Origin: a virus | Virus record (IMG/VR): IMGVR_UViG_3300021952_000001 | Location: 50,356 to 114,355 of that record | DNA: 64,000 nt | Reading direction: 5' to 3' (one strand) | Shown here: one piece after another, positions 4,333 through 64,000 of the stretch | Position numbering within the stretch: position 1 is the stretch's first letter | Layout of the letters: the number at the start of each line of letters is the position of its first letter | Notes under the pieces: model-generated | Database searches by the model: none | Told to the model about the DNA's origin: nothing | The model's input: only the letters and a program-made list of their open reading frames with translations | Position numbers and translations under genes: made by a program

Positions 4333-5430
4333 ATGGCTGATTTTTCATTAACCACGTTATTCGTGGTGCCAGTAGGACAGACTGTTCTTCCTAGCTCTGG
4401 TTCGACACAAGATCTTACTGCAGGTCAAGTAGGTATCTTCAACAGCAATTATGCAACTGTTAACGCAGGAACTATTGCAGCATCTCCTTATTTCTACGTT
4501 GCACAAGGTAGAGCTAACACTTACTTGCAAGGATCTAAAAGATCTGACAAAATTGCTAGTAATGGTTCTAACGTAACTGAATGGTACAAAGTATCAGGAA
4601 CTACAACTGCAAATGTTCAAGTTACAGATGTAACAGATTTTAATGTACAAGCAGGTGAGGATATCACTTTGACTTTACGTGCTCACTCAAGCTACTTGGA
4701 TACATTGTACTTCAATGGATTTACACGTTCAGTAACTGTAGCTGCTGCATGTTTAGAGTGTGGTGGTGATCCATGTGCTAGTGTTGATGTAAATGCATTA
4801 ATTGATGCTTTGATTGCAAAATTAGAAGCTCAAGCTCCAGGTACTAACCCTGACAACATTTCATTGAACCAATTTTATACATTTGAAAATGTAGGTGGTA
4901 CAATTTTACGTATTACTGGTAAACCATTAACTGCATATGGACAACCATGTGATGTAGCTGCTTTTCCTTACGAATATGACAGAATGTATTTCCGTACTTT
5001 CGTATATGCTGGACCTGCTACAACTGCTGACTTTATTGTTGCTGACAACTGTAACATTGTTGCTACAGCTACTGTAACTCAAGAAGCTTCTTACCCAACA
5101 GGTGTATCTGCAGAGATTGCACAATTGGAGAAAAACTTCTACAGCTACCAAGCTGGTTACTTGAAACATTTATATAGAATGAATGGTTACAATGAGAACT
5201 TTGAGTCTTATGTAGCTGCTGGTATCGCTTATGATACATTTTATATCAAATTCAACGAGTACAACAAAGGTGCTTATGTATGGGGTGATTATATCCATGA
5301 AGATGCTACTGTAATTATTGCTGTTCCAGTTAACTCAATGCTTACAAGTTCTCTTCAAAGTACGTTAGAAGCTGCTTTAGGTGCTCTTCCAAGCCCTTCT
5401 TCAACTACTACTACTACTACAACTATGTAA
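4333..5430 (+). CDS. Abundant virion protein with poly-Thr C-terminus
   Basis: This 365-residue protein has no family I can name. It is beta-rich, with a Cys cluster (CLECGGDPC, about residues 138-146) that splits an N-terminal domain from a C-terminal one, and it ends in a run of threonines. Like the capsid gene it favours C-ending codons, unlike its neighbours, and a very stable hairpin follows it. Both suggest high expression, so a major head-decoration or tail protein is likely. The N-terminal pattern (VGIFNSNYATV) recalls repeat-forming phage structural proteins, but this is weak. Confidence 0.6.
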   Translation: MADFSLTTLFVVPVGQTVLPSSGSTQDLTAGQVGIFNSNYATVNAGTIAASPYFYVAQGRANTYLQGSKRSDKIASNGSNVTEWYKVSGTTTANVQVTDVTDFNVQAGEDITLTLRAHSSYLDTLYFNGFTRSVTVAAACLECGGDPCASVDVNALIDALIAKLEAQAPGTNPDNISLNQFYTFENVGGTILRITGKPLTAYGQPCDVAAFPYEYDRMYFRTFVYAGPATTADFIVADNCNIVATATVTQEASYPTGVSAEIAQLEKNFYSYQAGYLKHLYRMNGYNENFESYVAAGIAYDTFYIKFNEYNKGAYVWGDYIHEDATVIIAVPVNSMLTSSLQSTLEAALGALPSPSSTTTTTTTM

Positions 5431-7131: not shown

Positions 7132-7356
7132 ATGAGTTGTACCAATTGCTTTAATGGTTGTGCTGAAACAACTTCAGATCAATGTGTAAAATATACAGGA
7201 ATAGACATTCCTGAATTAGGTATTGTCAAAGGTGACCCTTTAGCTGCTGTGTTGCAAAGTATCAATGATGCCATTATAGCGCTACAGATAGCTATTACAA
7301 CAACAACTACTACCACTGTGGCACCAACTACCACAACAACTACTACTAGTGCTTAA
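7132..7356 (+). CDS. Short Cys-containing protein with poly-Thr tail
   Basis: The 74-residue protein opens with a Cys-rich segment (MSCTNCFNGC), has a short helix (residues 40-60, LQSINDAIIALQIAI) and ends in a threonine tract. The helix LEMALIKIDQAIC near the start of the first collagen-like fibre protein (gene starting 41412) is similar, suggesting a shared virion-binding or trimerisation module. With no C-terminal domain after the linker, it may be a bare anchor or a shortened fibre. Confidence 0.55.
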   Translation: MSCTNCFNGCAETTSDQCVKYTGIDIPELGIVKGDPLAAVLQSINDAIIALQIAITTTTTTTVAPTTTTTTTSA

Positions 7357-36541: not shown

Positions 36542-39500
36542 ATGGCACATTGTGTAAATAGAAGTTCTCAAGAATTTATAGCATTAGCTGAACAATCAAA
36601 TATCAATCCAATAATTCTTGCTGCAAAGGTTTCTTTGTGGCAGGAAAAAAATGGATTAGATAACTTTCCCACAGTAGAAGATATATCAAATATTAAATCA
36701 AAAGGAGAAGTATTTAATACAGAAAGCTCTATATCATCTCCTAAGACAATTGCACTTATAAATGATTTTTTATCAAGAATTGGTGTAGATGTCAAATCTA
36801 CAAAAGATATTGTAGTTAATGGTATACGTGTGGATGCTAATGCTGTTGCAAACATTACACAGTCATTAGTTCAAGTGGTAGAAGGTAAAGAATCTAGAGC
36901 TCTTACAGAAGAGGCTATGCACTTTGCTGTAGAAATACTTGAACAAAAAAATCCAAAGTTATTTAATCAATTACTTAAAGAGATTAATAATTATGCATTA
37001 TTAAGAGATGTAATGTCTGAGTATTCTACAAATCCATTATATCAAACTACCGATGGTAAACCAGATATTCGTAAAATAAAAAAAGAAGCTATAGGTAAAG
37101 TGTTGGCTGAAACTGTGATTAATCAAAACGAAGGATCTACAGAAAATCCTGAACTATTGGCTAAAGTTGAATCATGGTGGAGTGAAATATTAAACTTCTT
37201 AAAAGGATTATTTGTAACAAGTGGATTTGATTCAGCAGCAATGAAAGTGCTATCTGGAGAAGCTATTGGTACAGTTGCAGATATTAGAGCTGAAGAAGGA
37301 ACAGTGTTCTTACAAAAAACTAAACAAGAACAAGTATTTGATAGTATCAAAGAAATGAGTTCTAAGATTACTAAACCAGAAGAAGACTATTACATTGATG
37401 GTAGAAAGATTGGTAGACGTGTAAGTAATCTTGTTGCTGATTGGTACGAGCGTAGATTTAAAAGTAATGATCTTACTAAGAGTGAATTTCAAAAAGCTGT
37501 AGATGATCTTAAAGCTGAGAAAGGAACAGCAGGACATGCTGATTTCGAACATGCCTTTGAAATATTTGTAGATGAGAATGGATTCTTAAGAGATGAACCA
37601 TTAGATGATAGTGGATATGTTTCTCAAATAAATCCTGCTAACAATGACATGTATGAACTTCTTAAGAACAATCTTAAGGATCGTTTAAATTCATTTCCTA
37701 AAGAAAATGGAGGAACTAGATTCATGTCTGAGGCTACAATTTATGATGCTCAAAGAGATATTGCTGGTACTGTAGATTTCTTAGCTGTTACACCAGAAGG
37801 AAAGGTTAGTATCCTTGACTGGAAGTTTATGGATCTTAACACAGATAAGTATACAGATATTCCTTGGTATAAAGTAAATGCTTGGAATACTCAAATGGAC
37901 CAATATAAATATATTATTGGTAAGACATATAATGTTAAGAATGAGAACTTTGAACAGACTAGAATGATTCCAATCAAGGCTGTTTATACAAAAGCAAATC
38001 CTAAGACAGGAGCTCTTCCTAAATTATTAAATATAAAAATTGGAGATGTTAATGTTAAAAACATTAAAGAAGATTATTTACTTCCTGTAGGACTTCAGTC
38101 TGAAAAAACTGGTAATAAAAAAATTGATACATTACTTGAAAAACTTAATGCTATCTACAAAAAACTTTCTGAAGAGAAAGTCTTACCTTCTGATAAACTA
38201 AACAAGGCTGAGCAATTAAATGCATTGTTCTCTGCAATTAGACAATTACAAGTGAAGCAAAACATTGCTCCATTGTTGTATCAAGCTAAAGTGTTGAATA
38301 AACAAGTGCAAGGTATATTAGATAAATACAAATCAGAATTTGAAGGTAAGGATGCTAAATCATTCACTGCAGATCAAATATCTGATTTTGCAGAAAGTAT
38401 TGAAACTGCAAGAGAAGCATTGACTGCATATACTAAACTTGATACAGAACTTAGATTCTTATTTGCAGGAGAACTATCTGATGAAGATAAAAAACTAAAA
38501 GAAGATTTAAGAGATACAGTTGATAATGCTAGAGAGTATGAAGATCTTTTAAAAGATGTTGATGAGGAATTTACTAATGATATAATTGGAGGTAGTGAAA
38601 ATGTTAAAAATCTTTCCACTCCAGAAAAGATTGTTAGAGGTATTAGTAAAATGTTTGGTAACACTGCTACATTACAGTTAAAAGGATTAGAGGTGTTATT
38701 TAAAAAAGCAAATAAAGCATTTGCTTTTGCTGGTATGGATACTTTAGCTGAAGTAAAAAAACTTACTGCTTTAAAAGAATCATATGAGAAATGGGCATCT
38801 AGTAAAGGGTTGACTAAAAAAAATATGTTTAATGCTATTCAAAAACAAGATGCTAATGAATTAATTGATGAGTTCAATCCTGAGTTTTATAGCACATTAA
38901 AAAAGAAAATACAAGATCAAGATTTTAAATGGATAAAAGAAAATGTTGATGTTGATGTTTATAAAAAACATATAGAAGAAAAAAAGAAAGAAGAAATTTT
39001 AAGAATATCAAACAAACCTAGAATTGGTACAGATGCACAGAATGCATTTGATATTAAAAGAGAACTAACAAAAGTTAATGATCTTTATAGTTTATCAACT
39101 CCTACAGGTATTGGATGGTTATTATATGATGACATTAAAAACTTTCCTAAAAGAGAAACATGGGAAAGTGAACAGTGGAAAGAATTAATTAAACCAGAAA
39201 ATAAACCTGCCAAAGACTTTTATGATTACATTAAAGAAAGAAATGAGTATTATAAAGAGATAGGATATATCAATGCTAAACAAGCTAGAACATTCTTACC
39301 GTGGGTGAGAAAAGGGTTATCTGAAAAACTTATATTTGGAGGAAAAATTTCTGTAGGAGAACAATTCTTACGACATATATCTGTAGATGAAGGAGATATT
39401 GGTTATGGTAAAGTTGATCCTTTAACTGGTAAGCCAGTTGATTCTATTCCAATCTATTTAACAAAACAATTAGATAGTGATTACTCTACTGATTTGTTTA

Positions 39501-41293
39501 AGACTATAGCAATGTATAATGAGTTTGCTATTAAGTTTAAATATCTTTCTGATATAGAAGCTCAAGGTAGAGCTCTTATTAGACTTGAACAAAATAAGAA
39601 AGCTATTGCTACATCTATGTTTGGTAAAACTCAATATAAAGATGGTGTAATTCAATATACACCAGATAATAATGAGAATGCTAAAATTATTGAAGATATG
39701 GTTAAAGCAATTGTTTACCAACAAAAATATATTGAGAGTGAGACATTTGATCAAATGTTAGGTAAGTTAGGAAACTTTGGAGGTAAATTAAATAAAGTGT
39801 TAGGACGTGATATATTTGCAGAAAACTTAGAAGGAAGACAAGTAAGTATTAATAAAGTGATTACTCAAATGAATAATACTTTTCAAATAGCTACATTAGG
39901 ACTTAATGTATTGTCATCTGCTTCTAACTTATTTGGTGGTAAAACACAATCATTAATTAACTCTGGTAAATACTTTACTAAAAAAGATTATGTATCTGCA
40001 GAGATGTGGTTGCTTGCAAATAAAATGGGTGGATCAGATAAACAAAAAATGTTAGCTGCTCTAGATTATTTTATTCCATTTACAGAAAATTACAACAGAG
40101 ATGCTGCTACTAAACTATCTTTAAATGCATTAGATGATCAAGCTATTCAAGATTGGTTAATGGTGTTAATGAGAGAAGGAGAACATTCTGTACAAACAAC
40201 TAACTTTTTTGCATACATAAATAATTCAATCGTTGAAAATGGTGAAATAGTTAATGCTAGAGAATTTTTGAAATCTACTCCAGAATATCAAAACTTTTAT
40301 AAAGGTAGTAAAGAAGAAAGAGAAGCACGTTCTGAAAAATTTGAAAAAGATGTTAAAGATCTTGTAGAAAAACAAGGAGTATTAAATTTAGGTAGTGTTG
40401 TAGATGGAGTGTTTGTTATTCCTGGCATTGAACAAAAATCTGATTCAGTAGTTGAAACAAGAAGAAAAATTCAACAATTTACTAGTGATGCATTAGGTAA
40501 CCTTACAGAAGAAAATAAACGTTTAATTAACTTAACTATATACGGTAACTCTTTTATGGTATTCAAGAACTGGATTCCTAGACTTGTAGATGTACGTATG
40601 GGTAACTTAAAATATAATTCAGCATCTGATGCATATGAATGGGGTAGAAGTAGAATGATGTTTAGAATAATTTCTGAAGACTTATTAGGTAGTATGCGCA
40701 TGTTGAAAAATTCTGTATTAGGAATTAATTCAGATAAAGATTTAGATGCTATAAGAAAGTTATTTGATAAAAAGAAATCTGATTATGAAACAGATACAGG
40801 TAAAGAACTTGATATGACTGAAGATGAGTTCATTGACCTTGTTAGACAAAATGTAAAAAATCAAATATTAGATACATTAACTTATGCTGCATTATTTGCA
40901 GTTGGTTTAGGACTTAAGGCATTAGCACCTGATGATGATGAAGATCCTTTTGTTAAAAATCAATATAAATTTTTATTGAAAGCAACAGATAAATTTAAAG
41001 ATGAGCTTGGATACTTCTATAATCCAACAAGCTTAACTGGATTAGTATCTACAGGAATATTTCCAGCAATGGGATTAATTGAAAATTATGAAAAAGCAGT
41101 TGTTAATTTCATGAAAGAAAACTATGCTATAGCAACAGGTAATCAAGAAATGGAAGATAAGAATAATGTAATTAAATATTGGATGAGATCATTTCCTATA
41201 TCGAGTCAAGCTGCAGGATTATTACCAATGTTCTATCCTAATTTAGCAAAAGACCTTGGATTGAAAATGCAATCACAGTATGGTATGAGGTAA
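36542..41293 (+). CDS. Giant virion protein with PD-(D/E)XK nuclease domain
   Basis: The 1583 residues contain a RecB/Cas4-type nuclease signature: AGTVDF (D412), ILDWK (D426, K428) and a following Q-x-x-x-Y (Q451, Y455), with the preceding GHADFEHAFE supplying an acidic helix. A segment near residue 120 (TEEAMHF) resembles a zinc-peptidase site with its first His lost. One hydrophobic stretch near the C-terminus (about 1450-1465, YAALFAVGLGLKAL) could be a membrane helix. It directly follows the polymerase gene and is likely ejected with it. The nuclease could act on host DNA or on phage DNA ends. Confidence 0.65.
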   Translation: MAHCVNRSSQEFIALAEQSNINPIILAAKVSLWQEKNGLDNFPTVEDISNIKSKGEVFNTESSISSPKTIALINDFLSRIGVDVKSTKDIVVNGIRVDANAVANITQSLVQVVEGKESRALTEEAMHFAVEILEQKNPKLFNQLLKEINNYALLRDVMSEYSTNPLYQTTDGKPDIRKIKKEAIGKVLAETVINQNEGSTENPELLAKVESWWSEILNFLKGLFVTSGFDSAAMKVLSGEAIGTVADIRAEEGTVFLQKTKQEQVFDSIKEMSSKITKPEEDYYIDGRKIGRRVSNLVADWYERRFKSNDLTKSEFQKAVDDLKAEKGTAGHADFEHAFEIFVDENGFLRDEPLDDSGYVSQINPANNDMYELLKNNLKDRLNSFPKENGGTRFMSEATIYDAQRDIAGTVDFLAVTPEGKVSILDWKFMDLNTDKYTDIPWYKVNAWNTQMDQYKYIIGKTYNVKNENFEQTRMIPIKAVYTKANPKTGALPKLLNIKIGDVNVKNIKEDYLLPVGLQSEKTGNKKIDTLLEKLNAIYKKLSEEKVLPSDKLNKAEQLNALFSAIRQLQVKQNIAPLLYQAKVLNKQVQGILDKYKSEFEGKDAKSFTADQISDFAESIETAREALTAYTKLDTELRFLFAGELSDEDKKLKEDLRDTVDNAREYEDLLKDVDEEFTNDIIGGSENVKNLSTPEKIVRGISKMFGNTATLQLKGLEVLFKKANKAFAFAGMDTLAEVKKLTALKESYEKWASSKGLTKKNMFNAIQKQDANELIDEFNPEFYSTLKKKIQDQDFKWIKENVDVDVYKKHIEEKKKEEILRISNKPRIGTDAQNAFDIKRELTKVNDLYSLSTPTGIGWLLYDDIKNFPKRETWESEQWKELIKPENKPAKDFYDYIKERNEYYKEIGYINAKQARTFLPWVRKGLSEKLIFGGKISVGEQFLRHISVDEGDIGYGKVDPLTGKPVDSIPIYLTKQLDSDYSTDLFKTIAMYNEFAIKFKYLSDIEAQGRALIRLEQNKKAIATSMFGKTQYKDGVIQYTPDNNENAKIIEDMVKAIVYQQKYIESETFDQMLGKLGNFGGKLNKVLGRDIFAENLEGRQVSINKVITQMNNTFQIATLGLNVLSSASNLFGGKTQSLINSGKYFTKKDYVSAEMWLLANKMGGSDKQKMLAALDYFIPFTENYNRDAATKLSLNALDDQAIQDWLMVLMREGEHSVQTTNFFAYINNSIVENGEIVNAREFLKSTPEYQNFYKGSKEEREARSEKFEKDVKDLVEKQGVLNLGSVVDGVFVIPGIEQKSDSVVETRRKIQQFTSDALGNLTEENKRLINLTIYGNSFMVFKNWIPRLVDVRMGNLKYNSASDAYEWGRSRMMFRIISEDLLGSMRMLKNSVLGINSDKDLDAIRKLFDKKKSDYETDTGKELDMTEDEFIDLVRQNVKNQILDTLTYAALFAVGLGLKALAPDDDEDPFVKNQYKFLLKATDKFKDELGYFYNPTSLTGLVSTGIFPAMGLIENYEKAVVNFMKENYAIATGNQEMEDKNNVIKYWMRSFPISSQAAGLLPMFYPNLAKDLGLKMQSQYGMR

Positions 41294-41411: not shown

Positions 41412-43256
41412 ATGAATCCATTTTGCGAAGCTGCTCCCTGTCCTATCATATTAAGCACCACCTGCGTATTTTACGAAGGAGGTAATTTAATATGTACTGG
41501 AATTAATACTAATGACACTTTAGAAATGGCTCTGATCAAAATTGATCAAGCTATTTGTGGTGTTAGTGGAACATCTGGTACGTCAGGTACTAGTGGTTTA
41601 ACAGGAACATCTGGAACCTCTGGGACTCATGGTAGTTCTGGTACATCTGCTACAAGTGGTAGTTCAGGAACTTCTGGTACAACTGGTACTAGTGGAACCT
41701 CTGGTAGTGCTGGAACATCAGGAACATCAGGAGAGAATGGAGATAGATATAGAACTCCTTCCTATTCAACATTTGACATGTGCGATCCTGCATTAATTGT
41801 TGTTAATTCAGAATTAGCATATAGTGTAGGACAAACTATTATTATAGCCCATGATCAAAATAATTCATTTGAAGCTACAGTAACATCATATAATCCATCT
41901 ACAGGAGAATTAGCATTTATAAACCCAGTTAATTGTGTTGGATCAGGAACTTATTCTTCTTGGACAATCAATCTTGCTGGTGCCTCTGGTGGGGATGGAA
42001 GTTCTGGGACTTCTGGAAGCTCAGGGTTAACAGGTTCACATGGAACAAGTGGTAGCTCTGGAACTACAGGTACAAGTGGAAGTAGTGGATTAACTGGTTC
42101 TTCAGGGACTGCTGGTACTTCTGGTAGTTCTGCTATTAATGGTACAAGTGGAACTAGTGGAAATAGTGGGTCTAGTGGTACATCAGGTATTACTGGTACC
42201 TCTGGATCAAACGGTTCTTCAGGTTCTTCTGGTAGTAGTGGTACACATGGTACATCAGGCACCTCTGGAGCTGATGGTGGTAATGGATCAAGTGGAACAT
42301 CAGGGTCTCACGGATCTAGTGGTACTTCAGGATTAAATGGTACATTTGGTACCTCTGGTAGTAACGGTAGAAATGGAACATCAGGTACTAGTGGAATAAA
42401 CGGTACATTTGGAACTTCAGGAAGTAATGGATCTAGCGGTACCAACGGTACTAGTGGAACTACAGGATCTAGTGGTACAACTGGTTCTCATGGAACTAGT
42501 GGCTCATCAGGGACTAATGGTTCTGCTGGAACTTCTGGATCTAACGGATCAAATGGAACTAGTGGAAGCAATGGTTCTTCTGGAACACATGGCTCTAATG
42601 GTACCTCAGGTACATCAGGTTTTAACGGTACTAATGGTACCAATGGAACAAGTGGTACACGAGGAAGTAATGGTACTTCAGGAAGCTCTGGAACTAGTGC
42701 TACCTCTGGTACAAGTGGAAGTAATGGTTCTGATGGTACTTCGGGAACAACAGGTACTTCAGGATCTAATGGTTCAAACGGTACATCTGGTACCACAGGA
42801 ACATCAGGAACTACAGGTACTAGTGGAACATCTGCAACAGATGGTACTGGAGGTACAAGCGGAACTAGTGGTACAACTGGAACATCAGGTAGTTCAGGAA
42901 CAACAGGAACCAGTGGTTCTTCAGGAGCTACATTTTCATATAGAGGAAACTCTACAAGTTGTATAACTCTTCCTTTATCATTATGTACAACTACTACTAC
43001 ATCCAGTACATCTAGTACAACTACAACTACTAGTACAACAATAGCACCATTATCGTGCACTAAGTGGACATTCACTGCACCAACTGAAAATCCTGGAGAT
43101 TCAGCAACTGTAAATTATATAGATTGTTCAAATATAGAACAATCTGTAACATTGACTTATGGAGAGTATCCAATAGAAATTTGTGTATATTCAATAGTAT
43201 CAACATCTTTATGTTGTGGAGCATTCTTAGGTGACACTTATGTTCCATGTAGCTAA
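41412..43256 (+). CDS. Collagen-like fibre protein 1
   Basis: The 614-residue protein has a short Cys-containing anchor (1-49), a Gly-X-Y stretch (about 50-112), a small domain ending SYNPSTGEL...WTINL (about 120-188), a long Gly-X-Y region (193-505) and, after a Ser/Thr linker, a Cys-containing C-terminal domain shared with the end of the muzzle-like protein. The triplets are Gly-Thr-Ser, Gly-Ser-Ser, Gly-Asn-Gly and the like, with no proline. Trimeric triple helix formation is implied by the Gly spacing; stability without proline would need another device, such as glycosylated Thr. Likely a receptor-binding or head fibre. Confidence 0.8.
   Translation: MNPFCEAAPCPIILSTTCVFYEGGNLICTGINTNDTLEMALIKIDQAICGVSGTSGTSGTSGLTGTSGTSGTHGSSGTSATSGSSGTSGTTGTSGTSGSAGTSGTSGENGDRYRTPSYSTFDMCDPALIVVNSELAYSVGQTIIIAHDQNNSFEATVTSYNPSTGELAFINPVNCVGSGTYSSWTINLAGASGGDGSSGTSGSSGLTGSHGTSGSSGTTGTSGSSGLTGSSGTAGTSGSSAINGTSGTSGNSGSSGTSGITGTSGSNGSSGSSGSSGTHGTSGTSGADGGNGSSGTSGSHGSSGTSGLNGTFGTSGSNGRNGTSGTSGINGTFGTSGSNGSSGTNGTSGTTGSSGTTGSHGTSGSSGTNGSAGTSGSNGSNGTSGSNGSSGTHGSNGTSGTSGFNGTNGTNGTSGTRGSNGTSGSSGTSATSGTSGSNGSDGTSGTTGTSGSNGSNGTSGTTGTSGTTGTSGTSATDGTGGTSGTSGTTGTSGSSGTTGTSGSSGATFSYRGNSTSCITLPLSLCTTTTTSSTSSTTTTTSTTIAPLSCTKWTFTAPTENPGDSATVNYIDCSNIEQSVTLTYGEYPIEICVYSIVSTSLCCGAFLGDTYVPCS
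41559..41746 (+). repeat. Collagen-like Gly-X-Y repeat, first block
   Basis: About 20 triplets, mainly Gly-Thr-Ser, at codon level mixed GGT/GGA, ACA/ACT, AGT/TCA/TCT. Protein repetition is exact while DNA repetition is broken by synonymous changes. Confidence 0.85.
41988..42930 (+). repeat. Collagen-like Gly-X-Y repeat, main block
   Basis: Over 300 residues of near-unbroken Gly-X-Y. X is mostly Thr, Ser or Asn and Y mostly Ser, Gly or Thr. Proline is absent. Open frames on the other strand and in other frames across this block are by-products of the repeat. Confidence 0.9.
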
Positions 43257-43281
43257 TAAATAAAACTAAAATAAAAATATA

Positions 43282-46200
43282 ATGAGTTGTCCATCTTCTC
43301 CATATTGCGATTTAACAATTACTATCTCTTCAGGACTAGCTTATGGTCCTGGGGACTTTTTAATGTTATATTGTGACAATTGTAATTACATAAACGGTCA
43401 AGTTGTATCATATAATCCTTCTACTGGAGAGTTAGTAATCACTCCAGATAAATTTGTAGGAAGTGGTGAATGCTGTAATTGGACTGTTAACTTATCAGGA
43501 GTTCCTGGAGTTAATGGTACTAGCGGTAGCAGTGGTACAAGAGGTTCTAATGGTACGTCTGGCACTTCAGGTACTAGTGGTACTGATGGAACAGGAGGTA
43601 CTTCTGGAACATCTGGTACATCAGCTATTGATGGTACTTCAGGCTCTAGTGGATCTTCAGGCACAGATGGAACTGGAGGAAGCTCTGGTAGCTCAGGAAC
43701 TTCGGGAACTAATGGTACTGGGGGAACTAGTGGTACGTCAGGTACAAGTGCAATAGATGGAACTAGTGGAACTAGTGGGAGTTCAGGAACCAGTGGGTCT
43801 AATGGATCTGATGGTACCTCTGGAACTTCTGGGACTACTGGAACCAGTGGTACTAGTGGCTCTAGTGGAACAAGCGGTACAACAGGAACAAGTGGAACTG
43901 GAGGTACTAGTGGTGTAGATGGAGTGAGTGGTGGTAGAGTTTATTATTTTAATAATAGTCAAAACTCTTCTATTTCTCCATATAAAGCATTATCTACTAC
44001 TCCTACAACAACTGGATTACAAACTGTCACTCTTACAATGGCTGGTAATCAACATGATGACCTTGTCCAATCATTTATTAGTGATCAATTTGGATTTACA
44101 ATTATTCCATCAGGTGTACAGAGATTTCACTTACATGCAATGAAACCTCAAGCTAATGATGATATACAAGTTTACGTAACATTACAATTAGCTAATTCAA
44201 CAGGAACTCCTTATGGATCTTTAATAACATCATCTCCTTCTATTATTAGTTGGAATGGTATGGGAATTATATCAGAAACTAATCTTGATGTAGTATTTCC
44301 TCATACTGCTGTAGCTGCTACAGATAGAATGATTGTTAAGATTTATTTTAGTAACTATGAGAGTACATCAAAAGTTGTTTCTTGGTATACAGAAGATAGT
44401 GAATATTCATATGTAACAACATCTATTGCTGCTGCAGCTGGAACTAATGGTACTTCTGGTACTACAGGGACCTCTGGTTCGTCAGGTACAACAGGTACAT
44501 CTGGAAGTTCTGGATTTACAGGATCTGATGGGACATCAGGAAGTAGTGGTGTTAATGGAACCAGTGGAACAACTGGTACTAGTGGGTCATCTGGCTCTTC
44601 TGGTATTGATGGGACTAGTGGAACGTCAGGAATAAATGGTACAAGTGGCACAAGTGGAATTAATGGAACTAGTGGATCTTCTGGTCTAAATGGATCTTCA
44701 GGAAGTTCAGGAATAAATGGTACGTCAGGAACATCTGGTGTGAATGGTACAAGTGGTACAGCAGGTACGTCAGGAGTAAATGGAACTAGTGGTGTAAACG
44801 GTACTTCAGGATCTTCAGGGTCAAGTGGAATAAATGGTACCAGTGGTATTAATGGAACGTCTGGTTCTTCTGGTGTTAATGGTACATCAGGAATCAATGG
44901 TACTTCTGGAGTGAACGGAACAAGTGGAGTTAATGGATCAAATGGAACCAGTGGCTTTAATGGTACAAGTGGTGTAAGTGGAACTTCAGGAGTTTCTGGT
45001 ACATCAGGTGTATCAGGCACAAGTGGTGTGAATGGAACATCTGGTAGTTCAGGAGTTAATGGAACCTCAGGAGTTAATGGAACAAGTGGATCTAGTGGTG
45101 TTTCTGGTACTAGTGGTACAACACCTACAACAGCAGTTTATGCAACAAATTCATCAAAACTATATTCAACAGATGCAGCTTATGCATATGGTAGTGCTAA
45201 TCCATATTATGGATATTTAACTTATAATTCATCTGCTAACAGATGGAGATTTAAAGCAAGTCCAGCTACTCCAGATTCAGTTGAAGTTGCTTATTCAGAT
45301 ACTTCAGGTGATGCTGCAAGTTTAGGTGGAATTGCAGCAGATAGACAAGTTTTTGGAGATAATGCTAATGGTAGATCTAAAGGAATGAGTAGTGGTAATG
45401 CCAACACATCTGATAGTTCTAACTCTTCTGGATTTTATTTTGGAACAAGTGTTACTGGAATGCCTAGTACTGATTGGTGGAATTGGCTTACTGTAGCTGG
45501 AGGTTCTTGGTCAGGTTCAGATGGATATAGATGGCAGATGACTGGATCTTTTTGGAGTGATGACTGGAGACTTAGAAGAATGACTTCTGGTTCATGGAAC
45601 AGTTGGGTATCTATATTGCATTCTGGAAATTATTCTAGCTATTCTAACTTTAGTGGAGCTGTATATGGAACTATTTATTACGATTATAATAATACTGGTT
45701 ATTACTTGGATCCAGCGTCTACTAGTAACTTAAATGTGGTAGATGTTGCAAATAGATTGCAAGCACCATGGATAGGAGTAAATAACTCATCTAGTACTTC
45801 AGGTAATGGATTATCATTGTATGGAGCTAACTATGGGGGAGGTCAACCTACTTATGGTATAATGTTTGCTGGAACAGCAACATTTGGTACTTTTGGAGCT
45901 GTATCAGCAGATTGGGCTACATACTTTACTATGGATTCAACAGCTAATAGAGGTTGGATATTTAGAAATACAACAAATGGAAATGTTGCTTCTATAAGTA
46001 ATTCAGGAAGAATAACAGCTACAAATCCAGGTGCTGATTCTATATCTACAGGTGGGTCTGTAGGAGTAGCTCCATTTACTGGAAATAGTAATGGAGGATT
46101 AACAGCTAATGCTGATTACTTTTACCCACTTATTCAAGGATATAGTACAACAACAGCAGGATATGCTAATACTACACAGTTTGGATATGTTAGACCTATT

Positions 46201-46623
46201 GCTAGTGACAATGGATACGGTGCCATTAAACTTACAGGAGATGGTGCATTATCAACACCTAAGATATGGAAATTTAATAATAATGGTGATTTTACTTCTC
46301 CTGGTGATGTCATAGCATACTCAGATGCTAGATTAAAAGAAAATATAAAGACTATAGAAAACGCTGTATCAAAAATACAATCTATAAGAGGAGTTACATT
46401 TAACAGAAATGATATTAACCCTGATGGAGATAGCACAATATATATGGGAGTTATAGCTCAAGAATTATTAAATGTAATACCAGAGGTTGTTAGAATTGAT
46501 GAAAAAGATAAATACTCAGTAGCATATGGTAACTTAGCTGGATTATTTATCGAAGCAATAAAAGAACAACAAACACAAATAGAAGAATTAAAACAATTAG
46601 TTAACCAATTAATAAATAAATAA
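43282..46623 (+). CDS. Collagen-like tail fibre with S74 chaperone end
   Basis: The 1113-residue fibre has an N-terminal domain (1-72) homologous to the one in the preceding fibre (VVSYNPSTGELVI...WTVNL), a Gly-X-Y block (73-218), a beta domain (219-385), a second Gly-X-Y block (387-612), a knob-like part with WWNWLTVAGGSW and WRLRRMTSGSWNSW (pyocin-knob type, about 730-780), a YYDYNNTGYYLDP strand and a C-terminal S74 intramolecular chaperone. S1014-D1015 of SDARLKENI should be the self-cleavage site; GVIAQE and the final helix agree. The last ~100 residues would be removed after the trimer folds. Confidence 0.88.
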   Translation: MSCPSSPYCDLTITISSGLAYGPGDFLMLYCDNCNYINGQVVSYNPSTGELVITPDKFVGSGECCNWTVNLSGVPGVNGTSGSSGTRGSNGTSGTSGTSGTDGTGGTSGTSGTSAIDGTSGSSGSSGTDGTGGSSGSSGTSGTNGTGGTSGTSGTSAIDGTSGTSGSSGTSGSNGSDGTSGTSGTTGTSGTSGSSGTSGTTGTSGTGGTSGVDGVSGGRVYYFNNSQNSSISPYKALSTTPTTTGLQTVTLTMAGNQHDDLVQSFISDQFGFTIIPSGVQRFHLHAMKPQANDDIQVYVTLQLANSTGTPYGSLITSSPSIISWNGMGIISETNLDVVFPHTAVAATDRMIVKIYFSNYESTSKVVSWYTEDSEYSYVTTSIAAAAGTNGTSGTTGTSGSSGTTGTSGSSGFTGSDGTSGSSGVNGTSGTTGTSGSSGSSGIDGTSGTSGINGTSGTSGINGTSGSSGLNGSSGSSGINGTSGTSGVNGTSGTAGTSGVNGTSGVNGTSGSSGSSGINGTSGINGTSGSSGVNGTSGINGTSGVNGTSGVNGSNGTSGFNGTSGVSGTSGVSGTSGVSGTSGVNGTSGSSGVNGTSGVNGTSGSSGVSGTSGTTPTTAVYATNSSKLYSTDAAYAYGSANPYYGYLTYNSSANRWRFKASPATPDSVEVAYSDTSGDAASLGGIAADRQVFGDNANGRSKGMSSGNANTSDSSNSSGFYFGTSVTGMPSTDWWNWLTVAGGSWSGSDGYRWQMTGSFWSDDWRLRRMTSGSWNSWVSILHSGNYSSYSNFSGAVYGTIYYDYNNTGYYLDPASTSNLNVVDVANRLQAPWIGVNNSSSTSGNGLSLYGANYGGGQPTYGIMFAGTATFGTFGAVSADWATYFTMDSTANRGWIFRNTTNGNVASISNSGRITATNPGADSISTGGSVGVAPFTGNSNGGLTANADYFYPLIQGYSTTTAGYANTTQFGYVRPIASDNGYGAIKLTGDGALSTPKIWKFNNNGDFTSPGDVIAYSDARLKENIKTIENAVSKIQSIRGVTFNRNDINPDGDSTIYMGVIAQELLNVIPEVVRIDEKDKYSVAYGNLAGLFIEAIKEQQTQIEELKQLVNQLINK
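43499..43936 (+). repeat. Gly-X-Y repeat block, fibre 2 proximal
   Basis: About 145 residues of Gly-Thr-Ser, Gly-Ser-Ser and Gly-Thr-Gly triplets, with a single Pro at the very start and several Gly-Gly interruptions. Confidence 0.85.
44440..45117 (+). repeat. Gly-X-Y repeat block, fibre 2 distal
   Basis: About 225 residues with a regular nine-residue theme, Gly-(Val/Ile)-Asn-Gly-Thr-Ser-Gly-x-Ser, no proline. It differs in composition from the proximal block, pointing to separate expansion. Confidence 0.85.
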
Positions 46624-46988
46624 TGGCAATAACATTCACATTCTTAACAGATGACACAATGAAACTGGAGATAGCTCCAGTGTTGGGAGAATTAACAGAC
46701 GTAGTAACAAGAGTTAGATATAACTATGTTGGTATAAACGAAGATGGTATTGAAGGTGTCTTTATAGGAGCAACTCCTATGCCTCTTCCTACAGATACAG
46801 AAAACTATATTCCTTTTGCAGACTTACAACCAGAAAATGTTGTAGCTTGGTTAGAGGCTGTTTCTGATAAAGTACATATGCAAGAGCGTATTACAAAACA
46901 GATTGAAGCTCAAATAGCTCCTAAGTATGAACCAGTACCTTCTCCTTGGGCACCAACAACAACTAGTACTACCACTTTACTAATCTAA
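46623..46988 (+). CDS. Small fibre-associated protein with Thr tail
   Basis: The 121-residue protein overlaps the fibre stop codon by one base. It is a compact mixed domain (TFTFLTDDTMKLEIAPVLGE; then a strand pattern VTRVRYNYVG) ending in a helix and a short Thr/Ser tail. I do not recognise a family. Coupling to the S74 fibre gene suggests a tail-fibre assembly or attachment protein. Confidence 0.6.
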   Translation: MAITFTFLTDDTMKLEIAPVLGELTDVVTRVRYNYVGINEDGIEGVFIGATPMPLPTDTENYIPFADLQPENVVAWLEAVSDKVHMQERITKQIEAQIAPKYEPVPSPWAPTTTSTTTLLI

Positions 46989-46994
46989 TAACAA

Positions 46995-47831
46995 ATGGCA
47001 TTACCAAGTTCAGGACCTTTATCGATTTCTCAAATTCATACAGCATTAGGTAGCTCTAGTTATTCATTGCACACATTAAGTGTTGCAGCTGGAAAGACTA
47101 CTCCTGATGCTATATCTGAATTTTATGGATACAGTTCACTAACTTATGTATATTTATATTATGGAAGTACAAAAACTATAGCTTGTAGTGGAGTATCAGC
47201 AGGATATTTTTATATAAATTCATCTGATTTAAGTACAGCAACTAAGATTTATACTAATTCAGGAGGAACTACATACGCTTCTACTGCATTTTATTCTGAT
47301 GGAAGTATAGCTAGATCATGGAGTAGTAGTACTACTGTTTTAGCAGCAGCAAGTGCTTGTGTTATATGTTTTGTAGAAGGAACTTTAATAACACTTGTGA
47401 ATGGACAACAGGTACCAATAGAAAATCTTTATGTTGATCAGTTATTAATGTCATCTAATATAAGTACATTAACAGATACAAATGATGTAGAAGAACTTTA
47501 TAAATGGAATACTTATAATTTACAAGAATCAAGAATAGATTCTCCTATTATTAAAATTGAAAAACAAACTGCTGATCAAACTGTTATGATAAATGATGGA
47601 TTATTAGAAGCAACTCCTTTCCATAGTCAATTATATAAAAGAGATGGTTTATGGAGATTTGATACTATAGGATCTATTCAAATTGGAGATTATTTATATG
47701 ATATTAATAAAAATGAAATAGAAGTAACTTCTGTTAAATTTAATAAAGAAATTAAAACAATATATCCATTATCATTATCTCCTTCACATACTTATTTTGC
47801 AAATAATATACTTACTCATAATATCAAGTAA
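46995..47831 (+). CDS. Tail protein with C-terminal Hint/intein-like domain
   Basis: The 278-residue protein joins a tail-type N-terminal domain (LPSSGPLSISQIHTALG, then a beta region) to a Hint fold. The intein blocks are visible: A begins at C125 (CFVEGTLITLVNGQQVPIENL), B is LLEATPFHSQLY with T207-x-x-H210, F is the strand PLSLSPSHTYFANNIL, and G is H275-N276, then only Ile-Lys. No homing endonuclease lies between. The residue after HN is Ile, not Cys/Ser/Thr, so splicing is unlikely. Cleavage at the C125 side, or transfer of the activated N-part to another amine, is expected, as in bacterial intein-like domains. It sits with fibre genes. Confidence 0.85.
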   Translation: MALPSSGPLSISQIHTALGSSSYSLHTLSVAAGKTTPDAISEFYGYSSLTYVYLYYGSTKTIACSGVSAGYFYINSSDLSTATKIYTNSGGTTYASTAFYSDGSIARSWSSSTTVLAAASACVICFVEGTLITLVNGQQVPIENLYVDQLLMSSNISTLTDTNDVEELYKWNTYNLQESRIDSPIIKIEKQTADQTVMINDGLLEATPFHSQLYKRDGLWRFDTIGSIQIGDYLYDINKNEIEVTSVKFNKEIKTIYPLSLSPSHTYFANNILTHNIK

Positions 47832-48172
47832 TGAATTATAAAATAGATAAATCTGATTTAAATAATATTAAAATAGTATCTACATCTAATATTAATATAG
47901 ATACTATTATTGGTAAATGGGTAACTAAAGAGGCTCAAAGTGAAGAGTCAAGATATCTTTGGCAAAAAGAAACAATGCAGGAACCCTGGAATGAAACAGA
48001 TGATTTAGGAAGATATACTAATCATTCTGATAATCCAAATACAAATGTTGAATTAATTGATGATTGTATAGTAATGATATCAAATAAAAATATACCAAAT
48101 GAAGTAGAAATAACTGTTGATTATAGAACATTATTTGATTTAATAGGATATATTCCAAATATTAATTTTTAA
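47831..48172 (+). CDS. Small SET-domain protein
   Basis: The 113 residues contain the SET methyltransferase core: GRYTNHSDNPN (residues 60-70, with N64-H65-S66) for cofactor binding, a strand VMISNKNIP, and EVEITVDYR (91-99, D97-Y98) forming the active-site knot. The N-terminal strands of the SET fold are short. SET proteins methylate lysines. The start overlaps the stop of the Hint gene (TAATG), so both are likely made together and the partner or substrate may be a virion protein. Activity is inferred from motif only. Confidence 0.7.
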   Translation: MNYKIDKSDLNNIKIVSTSNINIDTIIGKWVTKEAQSEESRYLWQKETMQEPWNETDDLGRYTNHSDNPNTNVELIDDCIVMISNKNIPNEVEITVDYRTLFDLIGYIPNINF

Positions 48173-48186
48173 TAAAAAATTAATAT

Positions 48187-48194
48187 TATCTTTG
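48187..48194 (+). promoter_or_regulatory. Promoter -7 box (TATCTTTG)
   Basis: An exact TAnnTTTG box 20 bases ahead of the start codon at 48215. The region 17-21 bases upstream has only T runs, so the -33 element is weak. Confidence 0.5.
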
Positions 48195-48214
48195 TAATAT
48201 AAATCAACAATATT

Positions 48215-48403
48215 ATGGAAAACATGACTGTAAATGATGCGTTGGGTATATTGATCCAAGCTGCTAATGATGCTCAATTAAGAGGAGCATTTACATTACA
48301 ACAAGCTGTTGCAATTGCTAAAGCTATTGAGGTGATATCAACACCACTAGATCAGAGACCAGAAGGTCCTATGAAGGATAAGGTTGTAAAAGCAAACGCA
48401 TAA
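48215..48403 (+). CDS. Small helical protein, unknown
   Basis: The 62-residue product is two helices (VNDALGILIQAANDAQLRG; FTLQQAVAIAKAIEVIST) and a charged tail. It has its own promoter-like box and lies before a bidirectional terminator. I do not recognise it. Its helix-turn-helix-like shape could be a small regulator or assembly factor, but no binding motif is clear. Confidence 0.55.
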   Translation: MENMTVNDALGILIQAANDAQLRGAFTLQQAVAIAKAIEVISTPLDQRPEGPMKDKVVKANA

Positions 48404-48406
48404 AAT

Positions 48407-48431
48407 AAAAGCTCCTAATTAAGGAGCTTTT
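48407..48431. terminator. Bidirectional terminator between convergent genes
   Basis: AAAAGCTCCT (48407-48416) pairs with AGGAGCTTTT (48422-48431), with A runs before and T runs after, so it can end transcription in both directions. It overlaps the end of the minus-strand gene. Confidence 0.88.
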
Positions 48432-50502
48432 TTATTTCTGTAATAACCATCTCTGGTGTTATTTCTTTGTGACATTCAAATTGTCTGTCTGTACCCTTAT
48501 GTACAGGACACCAATCCCAATCTCCTCTATCAAACTTATATTTAGGATCATTCCAACATCCATAACATACATTGGTATTAGTCACTCTATGACAACTGAA
48601 TTCATGACCTTCTTCTGTAAAGTTAGAAATCATTATAACAGGAGTTTCTAATGCCCAGGCTAACCATGATAATCCACTAGATAGTCCAATGAAGAACTTG
48701 CTATTAGATATAGCTGTGATCGTATTATCCATACTTGTATTAAGAAGTGGTTGACAGTTATCAAAAGGATTAGATTCTTTAGATGTATTGATTACTAACC
48801 AGCCTTCTCCATGTAAATAGTTAATTACTTCTTGCCAGCCCTCTCTAGTCCAGAACTTACATCCTGCTGTACTATTAGTAGCTATTGTAATGTATCCACT
48901 AACACTATCATCTTTATGATCTATAATCTCAGGTTTTATTTCTGTGTACTCAAGACCTAAAATATTTGTAGCTGCCATTTGTAATGGTATAGTGTTTGGT
49001 AATGTAGGTTCCTTGTTATAATCATAGAACCAACCAATTTTATACATCCCATACAAGTTAGTAACTATGGATCCTGGTTCAACAAATTCAATCTCTGGGT
49101 ACTGAGATTCAAACAAGAAGTTTTTGAATGTAGAAACAATCATTTTACAATGATGCTTCTTTCTGAATTCTTCTACATAAGGCATCCAAGCAATATTATC
49201 TCCTAATGAAGAACTATCAAAAGCAATATACACTCTTTGATCTGCATAGTTTAATAAGTTAGTATACACTAGCTCATCATCTTTATACACTTTAGTTGTC
49301 CATTGTGTGTAATATTCTCTACTAAGTTTTACCCAGTGATTAATCTTCACTACATCTCTATGGAATAAGTTATCTGTTTCATCATAGAATTCGATAGTAA
49401 AATTACTATCACTTGTTCCTGTAATTTCTATAAATGGTTGACCTACAAAGTGTTGCGTAATCTTATAATCTTTTACATCATTTTTCATAATATCAAATTC
49501 TGTTACCACTCTATATAGTGACATTAATTTATTTCTAAAATTAGCTGTTGTGTTATTCTTAAGAATATCATAAGTTGTTTTATCTTCAAGAAGATCTGAC
49601 AATTGATTCTTTAGTTTTCTTGGATCTAGATTTGTAATGTATCTAGTGAACATATTCTTGTACTGAGGAAGATTTCTAGCTAAGATCTTCTTACCCTTAG
49701 ATATAGCTTCTCTTATTACCAAAGGATTACATTCCCATGTGCTGTTGAACATAAACACATCTGCTGCATCTATAAATCTATCAGCATCACTTCTTTCTCC
49801 CCATATCTTTACATTATCTGGAACTCCAGCTTTCATCAATGGTCCCCAATAGTGTTCAAAGTTTCCAGCTTGATTACCTACAAAATGAAATGCTACATCT
49901 GGCATTTGTCTAGCTAGTTCTAACATTTCACCTTGATTCTTACCAGGAGTCCAAAGACCAACATTCACAACATGCTTCATTTTAAGATTCATACCTAAAG
50001 CTATCTTAGTTTCATATACATCTTCTTCAGATAATCTATAATCATCAATAGGAAACTCTATAACACTATACATAGATGGCATCTTACCAAATGTATCTAC
50101 ATGGTAAGGAGTACAGAATGCATAATAGTCTGGATGAAATATTTTTTCTTCATCTGGATTGAATGATACATCATGACATGTTTCTACAATACGATAGGTC
50201 CTATTGTTATCATATAGCTTAGTAATCATCCTTCTATCCAATCTTTCTGATGGTTCGTGTATATGAATTACATCTGGTTTGAATTCTTCTATTACATTGA
50301 ATAGTTCCATCTTATCTTCATGTAATGTATATACAGGAACAAGATCCATAATGGCATTACGTTGTACTACATAATCAAGACTATGACATGCATATTCTAC
50401 AACGCATATTTCAACATCATCTTTAAGTGTCTCTATTGTTTTCAATAGAAAAGCTGGCATTCCTCCTGTAGATAAATGAGGTGCTAGATATAGTATTTTC
50501 AT
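48415..50502 (-). CDS. Two-domain glycosyltransferase with TibC-type protein O-glycosyltransferase end
   Basis: I start the protein at the ATG at 50502 (MKILYLAPHLSTGG, the usual GT4 opening); an in-frame TTG at 50523 would add seven residues. The N-terminal half (1-350) is a GT-B fold with an E-x7-E motif (E257, E265). The C-terminal half (about 425-695) resembles bacterial autotransporter heptosyltransferases: DSSSLGDNIAWMP, then SSGLSWLAWALETPVI, and a Cys finger C-x2-C-x15-C-x11-C (residues 646-677) like the iron-binding finger of TibC. Those enzymes put sugars on Ser/Thr of surface proteins. It is the only minus-strand gene, beside the Thr/Ser-rich fibres. Confidence 0.8.
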   Translation of the reverse strand: MKILYLAPHLSTGGMPAFLLKTIETLKDDVEICVVEYACHSLDYVVQRNAIMDLVPVYTLHEDKMELFNVIEEFKPDVIHIHEPSERLDRRMITKLYDNNRTYRIVETCHDVSFNPDEEKIFHPDYYAFCTPYHVDTFGKMPSMYSVIEFPIDDYRLSEEDVYETKIALGMNLKMKHVVNVGLWTPGKNQGEMLELARQMPDVAFHFVGNQAGNFEHYWGPLMKAGVPDNVKIWGERSDADRFIDAADVFMFNSTWECNPLVIREAISKGKKILARNLPQYKNMFTRYITNLDPRKLKNQLSDLLEDKTTYDILKNNTTANFRNKLMSLYRVVTEFDIMKNDVKDYKITQHFVGQPFIEITGTSDSNFTIEFYDETDNLFHRDVVKINHWVKLSREYYTQWTTKVYKDDELVYTNLLNYADQRVYIAFDSSSLGDNIAWMPYVEEFRKKHHCKMIVSTFKNFLFESQYPEIEFVEPGSIVTNLYGMYKIGWFYDYNKEPTLPNTIPLQMAATNILGLEYTEIKPEIIDHKDDSVSGYITIATNSTAGCKFWTREGWQEVINYLHGEGWLVINTSKESNPFDNCQPLLNTSMDNTITAISNSKFFIGLSSGLSWLAWALETPVIMISNFTEEGHEFSCHRVTNTNVCYGCWNDPKYKFDRGDWDWCPVHKGTDRQFECHKEITPEMVITEIKKLLN

Positions 50503-59060: not shown

Positions 59061-60077
59061 ATGAGAGATTTAAAATTCATTCAGGCTTGTCCTGATGACG
59101 CATATTACACTTGGCAAGTGCATTTGTGGCTAGAGAGTCTTAGAAACATAGGACAGTCTGATAAGGCTATATCCTTGATCTTTACTCCTAAGAATAGAGA
59201 AGTTAATCAAAAATGGAAACAAGTAATGGACTTGTATCCAGAAGCAGAGTTTCATTTCTATAAAGATGTTGATAATGTAAGTGATCTATTAGGAATCTAT
59301 ATTCCTATTCTACGTCCTTACGTCCTTTGGAAACATTTCAAAGAGCATCCAGAATTAAAAGATAAAGCTATCTTCTATTGTGATTCAGATATTCTGTTTA
59401 CAAAAGATTTCAATGTTGATCAGTTCTTAGAAGATGAAATATGTTATCTCTCAGATACAAATAGTTATATAAACGCATCCTACTTTGATAGTAAGGTGCA
59501 TCAAGTGCTTCCAGAGAAGCTTGAAGATTACAAGAACAGAGATGTTCTTGGAGAATTAACAAGTGTTATTGGAATCAACAGAGAAATCTGTGAAGCTAAT
59601 AATTTAAATTCAGGAGGAGCACAATATCTTTTAAAGAATGTAGATGCTTATTTCTGGAGTAAGGTGATGAATGATTGCATTATCATTAGAACATACCTTC
59701 AGAATATAAACAGAGAGTATTTTAAAGATGAGAATTCAGGATACCAAAGCTGGTGTGCTGATATGTGGGCTGTTCTTTGGAACCTTTGGGCTAGAGAACA
59801 AGAAACTAAAGTGGTTAAAGAACTAGACTTTGCTTGGGCAACTGATCCAATTTCTAGATTAGAAACAACATCTATTCTGCATAATGCAGGAATAGCTGCC
59901 ACACAACAAGATGGACACTCTTGTTTCTATAAAGGTAAATACCATATGGGACAAGATCCAACTAAAGATCATCATTTGAACATTGTGTTGAATGATGAGA
60001 AATCAAAACAATTTTGTACATGGCATTATGCCAACGAATTAAAGAAATTATCAAACAAATATAACCTTAATTACTAA
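59061..60077 (+). CDS. GT-A glycosyltransferase
   Basis: The 338-residue protein shows a GT-A fold: an N-terminal strand and helix (LKFIQACPDDAYYTWQVHLW), the metal-binding AIFYCDSDILF (D108-S-D110), and the acceptor-side segment NSGGAQYLLKN followed by a Trp-rich helix (CADMWAVLWNLWAR) and a late His-containing loop (ILHNAGI). The pattern is reminiscent of peptidyl-Ser/Hyp glycosyltransferases, which is suggestive given the neighbouring Ser/Thr-rich proteins, but a role in modifying host polysaccharide is possible. It sits among small fibre-like genes. Confidence 0.7.
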   Translation: MRDLKFIQACPDDAYYTWQVHLWLESLRNIGQSDKAISLIFTPKNREVNQKWKQVMDLYPEAEFHFYKDVDNVSDLLGIYIPILRPYVLWKHFKEHPELKDKAIFYCDSDILFTKDFNVDQFLEDEICYLSDTNSYINASYFDSKVHQVLPEKLEDYKNRDVLGELTSVIGINREICEANNLNSGGAQYLLKNVDAYFWSKVMNDCIIIRTYLQNINREYFKDENSGYQSWCADMWAVLWNLWAREQETKVVKELDFAWATDPISRLETTSILHNAGIAATQQDGHSCFYKGKYHMGQDPTKDHHLNIVLNDEKSKQFCTWHYANELKKLSNKYNLNY

Positions 60078-63392: not shown

Positions 63393-63532
63393 TGAAATCA
63401 GGAAAACCTAGAAATGCACCAAAAGTGAAAGCTCCCAATCCTAAGAAGCCAAACTTCATGAAGGAAGCTGATACACCAAGTAGATTAAAAAGTCCTATGA
63501 CTCCAATGAAATCTAAGAGATTATCAAAATGA
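63392..63532 (+). CDS. Small basic Pro-rich protein (46 residues)
   Basis: Starts on the last base of the preceding stop (TAATG) and ends in an ATGA overlap with the methyltransferase gene. It is Lys/Pro-rich (KPRNAPKVKAPNPKKPNF; ending KSKRLSK) and likely disordered. It probably joins the group of small basic virion proteins. Confidence 0.55.
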   Translation: MKSGKPRNAPKVKAPNPKKPNFMKEADTPSRLKSPMTPMKSKRLSK

Positions 63533-64000
63533 GAAATGAATTAAACCAACTAACTACAGAACTTTCTTTTACTCCTATTACATTTATGGAAATAGGTAGT
63601 AGAGATGGACATGATACAAAGTATGTAGCAGACTACTGGAAACTAAATCCTGAAGATTGTTATATCATAGAAGCTTATCCAGCTCTATGTGATAGAATCA
63701 AAGCTATGTATCCACAGTTCAATACATTTGGATTTGCTGCTTCTAATAAAATAGGAACAGTTGAATTCAATGCTGTACCACTTACAGATCATGATAATAA
63801 CATAGGTATATCTTCTATATTAGAATGTGTTGCTTATGATGTTCCATCTAATAAGATAACTGTAGAGACAAACACCATATCAAACTTTCTAGATTACTTA
63901 GGTTTACCTGGAGTAGATCTTATTAAAATAGATGTTGAAGGGTTTACACAAGAAGTGCTACATGGATTTGAAGATAAGCTTCAGAACATTAAAGCTATTC
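63529..64000 (+). CDS. FkbM-type methyltransferase, 3' end outside window
   Basis: The frame is open at the last base; 157 residues are seen. FMEIGSRDGHDT (residues 19-30) is the AdoMet-binding loop, IIEAYPALCDRI the second acidic strand, and LIKIDVEGF (131-139, with D135 and E137) the FkbM family motif. Such enzymes often O-methylate sugars or natural products. It starts in an ATGA overlap with the previous gene. In a phage with two glycosyltransferases, methylation of a virion or host glycan is a fair guess. Confidence 0.75.
   Translation, partial: MRNELNQLTTELSFTPITFMEIGSRDGHDTKYVADYWKLNPEDCYIIEAYPALCDRIKAMYPQFNTFGFAASNKIGTVEFNAVPLTDHDNNIGISSILECVAYDVPSNKITVETNTISNFLDYLGLPGVDLIKIDVEGFTQEVLHGFEDKLQNIKAI

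Follow-up and report, generated by a model that had tools for sequence, protein, structure and literature searches.

A candidate phage O-glycosyltransferase gained and lost together with proline-free collagen-like fibres

The structure of TibC, a BAHT-family protein glycosyltransferase, identified Asp-110 as the catalytic base, Thr-226, Lys-230 and Trp-305 as donor residues and Cys 339, 342, 358 and 370 as an iron-binding finger, and showed that Arg-286, which contacts adenine, and a beta-hairpin thumb needed for the dodecamer are both essential (PMC4358343). Phage-encoded enzymes that glycosylate the phage's own virion proteins are described for mycobacteriophages, at the C-termini of capsid and tail-tube proteins (Freeman et al. 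2023, cited in PMC12619734). Here we analyse a 64,000-nucleotide stretch (the window) of the 114,355-base virus record IMGVR_UViG_3300021952_000001 (G000), covering its positions 50356-114355, in which a minus-strand gene at 48415-50502 encodes a 695-residue glycosyltransferase (from ATG) convergent to an operon with two genes for collagen-like fibres almost free of proline. Gly-X-Y repeats without proline are expected to give a weak triple helix. In the Riftia cuticle collagen (galactosyl-Thr) and in Bacillus BclA, which are hydroxyproline-poor, Thr sugars of the Gly-X-Y repeats stabilise or coat the triple helix; these repeats remain Pro-rich (Gly-Pro-Thr), and the enzymes are unrelated or unknown. 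From the sequences compared below we propose, with a probability of roughly 0.7, that the product of 48415-50502 is a phage-specific O-glycosyltransferase acting on the phage's own Pro-free collagen fibres, whose glycan would substitute for proline and coat the fibre.

The enzyme joins an N-terminal GT4 half to a BAHT half. The GT4 domain (Glycos_transf_1, PF00534; 49549-49995, minus strand) scored 40.1 bits and its fold matches MshA, HepE and BshA. The BAHT/TibC-like domain (48424-49404, minus strand) scored 266.2 bits against TIGR04414, which has a curated cut-off of 200 (residues 374-700 of the 702-residue open reading frame), and TibC was the best match of the enzyme in the PDB both by sequence (E 5.8e-51) and by fold. 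The predicted model aligned with TibC (4rap) at a template modelling (TM) score of 0.78-0.80 over about 369 columns, and strands in residues 346-416 form a beta-rich part at the position of the N-terminal beta-barrel. Quality of the model was 80.6 by predicted local distance difference test (pLDDT) and 0.51 by predicted TM score (pTM). TibC Asp-110, Thr-226, Lys-230 and Trp-305 correspond to D435, T545, K549 and W613 in the window enzyme, and its four-Cys finger C646/C649/C665/C677 (48472-48567, minus strand) has the spacing C-x2-C-x15-C-x11-C, identical to that in TibC. An earlier sequence-only reading of the window had recognised the TibC/heptosyltransferase resemblance of the C-terminal half and the finger. 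Both observations hold, and the fold, which it had named in advance as one of the points on which it could fail, is TibC-like.

When 60 phage and 86 bacterial BAHT enzymes were compared, the catalytic Asp, the Lys, the Trp and the four Cys were retained in all or nearly all of them; among the phage enzymes Asp, Lys and Trp were present in 60/60 and Thr or Ser occupied the Thr-226 site in 60/60. The equivalent of Arg-286 is Arg in 84 of the 86 bacterial enzymes but in only 5 of the 60 phage enzymes, and is Thr (T594) in the window enzyme. The thumb-tip positions are gaps in the window enzyme, and the median length of the thumb region is 35 residues in phages compared to 45 in bacteria. Because the thumb and, in nearly all members, Arg-286 are missing from the phage branch, neither an ADP-heptose donor nor a dodecamer ring can be assumed, and the replacement of the adenine-contacting Arg by Thr makes ADP-heptose doubtful as the donor. 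A search of the genome contigs with the window enzyme alone as query yielded no close bacterial relative.

Profiles for the donor and the acceptor of the known family pointed the same way. TIGR02199 (HldE C-terminal, ADP-heptose synthesis) had no match in the window phage and was over its cut-off in 1 of 35 enzyme-bearing phages (G036), whose enzyme retains Arg-286. With one phage over the cut-off, and weak matches in six others that represent the wider cytidylyltransferase family, phage-made ADP-heptose was rejected. The strand-loop-strand acceptor repeat of AIDA-type autotransporters (TIGR04415) was found in none of the 35. Of the TibC-type chemistry implied by the sequence-only reading, the fold, catalytic residues and finger are thus in place, while Arg-286, the thumb, a heptose-synthesis gene and a TIGR04415 acceptor are missing. 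The chemistry on Ser/Thr, judged from the retained residues, is probably the same as that of TibC.

Domain architecture varies among the relatives of the enzyme. Fusions of methyltransferase, GT4 and BAHT exist, as at L005:8549-12097 and L062:18885-22301, where an extra N-terminal methyltransferase (FkbM or Methyltransf_23) gives one chain of 1100-1180 residues; these chains resemble glycan assembly lines built as a single polypeptide. A sub-clade within the window phage's lineage (G017, G018, G019 and G020; loci L164-L167) has, in place of the fused enzyme, a free-standing BAHT of about 355 residues (43% identical), and the G017 copy holds an in-frame TAA.

The proposed acceptors are the products of fibre gene 1 (41412-43256, plus strand, 614 residues), with Gly-X-Y blocks at 41559-41747 and 41979-42932, and fibre gene 2 (43282-46623, plus strand, 1113 residues), with blocks at 43498-43938 and 44440-45123. 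Both match the collagen family PF01391 (E 4.7e-50 and 8e-46, respectively). Together the four blocks contain 246 strict, uninterrupted Gly-X-Y triplets with 370 Ser/Thr. Collagens owe their stability to Pro at the X position and Pro or hydroxyproline at the Y position, but these blocks have 1 Pro in all 246 triplets. Not one run of 8 triplets appeared in 300 shuffles of both fibre proteins. Ser/Thr occupy the X position in 81% of triplets and the Y position in 69%, and Asn accounts for 18% at Y. The two genes with four nearly proline-free blocks are as first described; only the claim of Thr/Ser in "nearly all" X and Y positions was, given the Asn share, slightly overstated. Fibre 2 ends in a Peptidase_S74/endosialidase intramolecular chaperone (46321-46494, plus strand; residues 1014-1071, 51.3 bits), a feature of homotrimeric fibres.

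Evidence for a link between enzyme and fibre comes from their co-variation. The lineage of the window phage was sampled as 30 contigs anchored on the fibre-adjoining gene at 38642-41290, 17 of which had TIGR04414 over cut-off (BAHT-positive) and 13 of which did not. Three of the latter (G007, G010 and G016), which carry Ser/Thr collagen, were excluded because their sequence stops within the fibre region or shortly beyond it. Ser/Thr-type, Pro-free Gly-X-Y repeats were present in 17/17 enzyme-positive contigs and in 0/10 enzyme-negative contigs (Fisher p 1.2e-7, a value that is uncorrected and inflated by relatedness). Five of the ten negatives have no collagen and five have only a Pro-type GPQGPQ collagen (12.8-17.5% Pro, 3-7% Ser/Thr); eight of the ten, searched whole, gave no GTSGTSG coding site. 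A tree built from the anchor protein places at least 7 gains or losses of the enzyme on well-supported branches, and the type of collagen tracks the enzyme in 7/7 independent pairs (sign test p 0.016). The link persists where the enzyme does not adjoin the fibre (e.g. G015, G018 and G022) and where it belongs to the free-standing subfamily (G017-G020). Positives and negatives did not differ in GC content, in Pro use outside the repeats or in other Ser/Thr runs (p 0.41 for runs), so neither codon or GC bias, considered as the origin of the Pro-free repeats, nor poly-Thr linkers, considered as the acceptor, explain the link, and both were rejected.

Other phages behaved similarly, although many contigs in these comparisons are fragments. 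In a second, terminase-anchored group, collagen was over the Pfam cut-off in 12/12 enzyme-bearing contigs and 0/12 enzyme-free contigs; the enzyme-bearing contigs are closely related and were therefore counted as about one event. One apparent enzyme-bearing phage without collagen (L023) was dismissed as such, since the rest of its contig (G084) contains a collagen gene of 901 residues. Contigs were also selected from IMG/VR by motif, 36 of at least 30 kb by the GTSGTSGTSGTSG motif (GTSG) and 33 by GPQGPQGPQ. The enzyme was found in 13 of the GTSG-selected and 1 of the GPQ-selected contigs (Fisher p 6.6e-4), and that single GPQ-selected contig also holds 70 GTSGTSG sites. A Ser/Thr Gly-X-Y frame in L502 was left uncounted as a GC-rich open reading frame of doubtful coding. 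The enzyme gene lies beside a GTSG fibre gene in Microcystis phage Mel-JY01, which is in culture; in the 735-kb phage LR756501 and in tailed phages from Flavobacteriales bins (L500 and L501), enzyme and fibre genes are likewise adjacent.

Two of the phage sequences deserve separate mention. The Mel-JY01 gene (PP395634.1, 4750-8430) was deposited as "methyltransferase FkbM"; its product matches GT4, GT9-like (Pfam) and BAHT (TIGR04414) profiles, with no FkbM match at the threshold used. L259 contains a phage open reading frame of at least 3654 residues, about 3045 of which are Ser/Thr-type Gly-X-Y.

Enzyme and fibre parts have been exchanged between phage lineages. Identity between the window enzyme and those of L002 and L003 is 82-83%, while the terminases are only about 26% identical over 200 residues. 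DUF7936, encoded by the gene for 121 residues that follows fibre gene 2 (46623-46988, plus strand), moves between lineages with fibre and enzyme, with 82-94% identity in L001-L003 (82-92% between the window and L002/L003), and a non-collagen domain of fibre 2 (residues 220-384) is 73% identical to its L003 counterpart. The enzyme usually sits 1-5 kb from the fibre gene. Small GIY-YIG-like open reading frames (M.YVYRHIRLD..PFYIGIG) adjoin the enzyme gene in L002, L003, L010, L011, L021 and L024 and are possibly homing endonucleases that help the cassette to move.

In the mechanism that we propose, the BAHT half would add a first sugar to Ser/Thr of the Gly-Thr-Ser repeats while the fibre is being made in the host cytoplasm, the GT4 half would probably attach a second sugar that extends the first, and the fused methyltransferase of some relatives would probably cap the glycan. 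The glycans would keep the triple helix together and shield it from damage, as proline or hydroxyproline does in ordinary collagen, and would also coat the fibre. Among close relatives, Pro-type collagen occurs where the enzyme is lacking and Ser/Thr-type collagen where it is present, a pattern suggesting that the glycan is a substitute for proline; shielding or host recognition would be equally plausible roles. We infer the activity of the enzyme, the order of sugar addition and the stabilisation of the helix from sequence comparisons. More tentatively, and at slightly worse than even odds, the phage-only BAHT branch as a whole, which is widespread, thumbless, devoid of Arg-286 and often part of a single methyltransferase-GT4-BAHT chain, may place a non-heptose, possibly methylated oligosaccharide on hundreds of Ser/Thr per fibre in place of proline, and so provide a second, glycan-based route to collagen that phages switch to and from.

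Several results weigh against fibre glycosylation by this enzyme. The two elements missing from the window enzyme, Arg-286 and the thumb, are essential in TibC. The finger region of the model is poorly predicted (pLDDT about 50) and, at the pTM obtained, it is uncertain how the domains sit relative to one another. Formation of a triple helix by the GTS repeats is assumed. No BAHT is seen in 23 of the 36 GTSG contigs, and although many of these are fragments, five are at least 65 kb and one is 148 kb; such fibres may be bare or rely on other enzymes. Conversely, LR756504 (636 kb) has BAHT and no GTSGTSG site. The core of the sequence-only reading, that the phage glycosylates its own fibres, is nevertheless strengthened by the co-variation, by the repeated gains and losses, by the second lineage and by the unrelated phages, with only its TibC-specific chemistry weakened.

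An alternative is that the enzyme alters the host surface polysaccharide (lipopolysaccharide (LPS) or capsule), e.g. to keep out superinfecting phages, and that its link to the fibre reflects clustering of host-range genes. GT4 and GT9-like domains do resemble those of LPS core synthesis, and phage glycosyltransferases near fibre genes are commonly interpreted as polysaccharide-modifying (PMC7029224). The C-terminal half, however, belongs to the protein-modifying BAHT branch, the profile for the WaaC-type LPS heptosyltransferase scoring only 25 bits, and a polysaccharide target predicts no dependence on Ser/Thr, yet the enzyme tracks Pro-free Ser/Thr collagen and not collagen generally. We regard this alternative as unlikely. 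Modification of a different virion protein is somewhat less likely again: poly-Thr tracts occur in or at the ends of several virion proteins of the window (e.g. 4333-5430 and 7132-7356) and could serve as acceptors, but Ser/Thr runs outside Gly-X-Y are, as noted, equally frequent with and without the enzyme, and only the Gly-X-Y type co-varies with it.

It might also be argued that enzyme and fibre have no functional connection and are simply swapped jointly within one exchangeable fibre cassette. They do travel together, usually at the short distance given above, but the link survives non-adjacency, the change to another enzyme subfamily and unrelated phage backbones, and we give this explanation a low probability. 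Glycosylation of phage DNA as a protection against host nucleases, for which many phages encode enzymes (discussed in PMC12619734), is very improbable here; the product matches no DNA glycosyltransferase family, and its gene is surrounded by virion genes and tracks the type of fibre.

The remaining features of the window and record concern the identity of the phage and the neighbours of the cassette. The last 127 or so bases of G000 repeat the first 127 or so, within a gene for an FkbM methyltransferase, and the record therefore looks like a complete circular genome. The 5' part of this FkbM-type gene is at 63529-63999 (plus strand) and is completed over the circular junction at G000:1-285; in some relatives this type is fused to BAHT. 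Further sugar-modifying genes are present in the genome, a GT2-type gene (L029:297-959, minus strand) coming after the junction gene. The source is a crAss-like phage of freshwater type. Its large terminase resembles those of Leptolyngbya phage Lbo-JY46 (40%), of Cellulophaga phages and of crAss-like phages from the gut, and the gene plan is crAss-like, with early genes on the minus strand and late genes on the plus strand. The sequence-only reading had called the enzyme gene the only one on the minus strand, which is true of the late module in the window but not of G000, where the early half (1-43 kb) is minus strand nearly throughout. A second putative glycosyltransferase of 338 residues with a GT-A fold and a DxD motif (59061-60077, plus strand) belongs to PHROG 4417 (unknown function); its fold resembles glycogenin and the blood-group enzymes (E about 5e-6), and its N-terminus may be reminiscent of plant Hyp/Ser glycosyltransferases. 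It is conserved in the lineage with and without BAHT, is therefore not tied to it, and was rejected as a part of the system.

Between DUF7936 and the enzyme gene lie two further genes. A 278-residue protein (46995-47831, plus strand) has a virion-type N-terminus and an intein/Hint-like C-terminal half, the latter a weak match (E 0.018) below the Pfam cut-off; this half ends in HN, and the relatives in L001-L003 share the N-terminal part without it. A 113-residue protein beside the fibre genes (47831-48172) matches the SET domain at 37 bits (cut-off 22.4), a histone-methylase-type domain that is odd in a phage. A perfect, bidirectional terminator-like hairpin (48407-48431) separates the convergent late operon from the enzyme gene; 3 such hairpins were found in the region, where 0.8 were expected, and two of the 3 are the two strands of this one.

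If the proposal is correct, it offers a general answer to how long collagen-like phage fibres are made without proline or prolyl hydroxylase, and a protein-glycosyltransferase family known only from bacteria gains a phage-specific branch, whose acceptor is new and whose donor probably is too. A literature search, which did not cover most subscription journals, found no report of a phage BAHT. The close relatives that carry either enzyme and Ser/Thr collagen or Pro collagen and no enzyme would be natural pairs in which to study the role of the glycan in stability, host recognition and shielding, and Mel-JY01 is a member already in culture. For annotation, BAHT adjoining GTSG repeats would indicate a glycosylated fibre.

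Compared with TibC and AAH (BAHT, TIGR04414; PDB 4RAP and 4RB4), the window enzyme is over the family cut-off and has the same fold, catalytic Asp, phosphate-binding Thr/Lys, Trp and finger spacing, and its presumed acceptor is likewise a Ser/Thr-rich repeat protein. It differs in being phage-encoded and fused to GT4 (in relatives sometimes also to a methyltransferase), in a thumb region about 10 residues shorter, in Thr at the position of Arg-286, and in having Gly-X-Y collagen instead of a beta-helix, with no autotransporter or TIGR04415 repeat. The proposed target, the phage's own virion proteins, is shared with the mycobacteriophages, while the BAHT-type enzyme and collagen-like fibres set the window phage apart. 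Proline is essentially absent from the window fibres, unlike the Riftia and BclA collagens. A further comparison is with the Pro-type GPQGPQ fibres of close relatives of the window phage, which follow the same Gly-X-Y plan but are rich in Pro, poor in Ser/Thr and without a BAHT enzyme.

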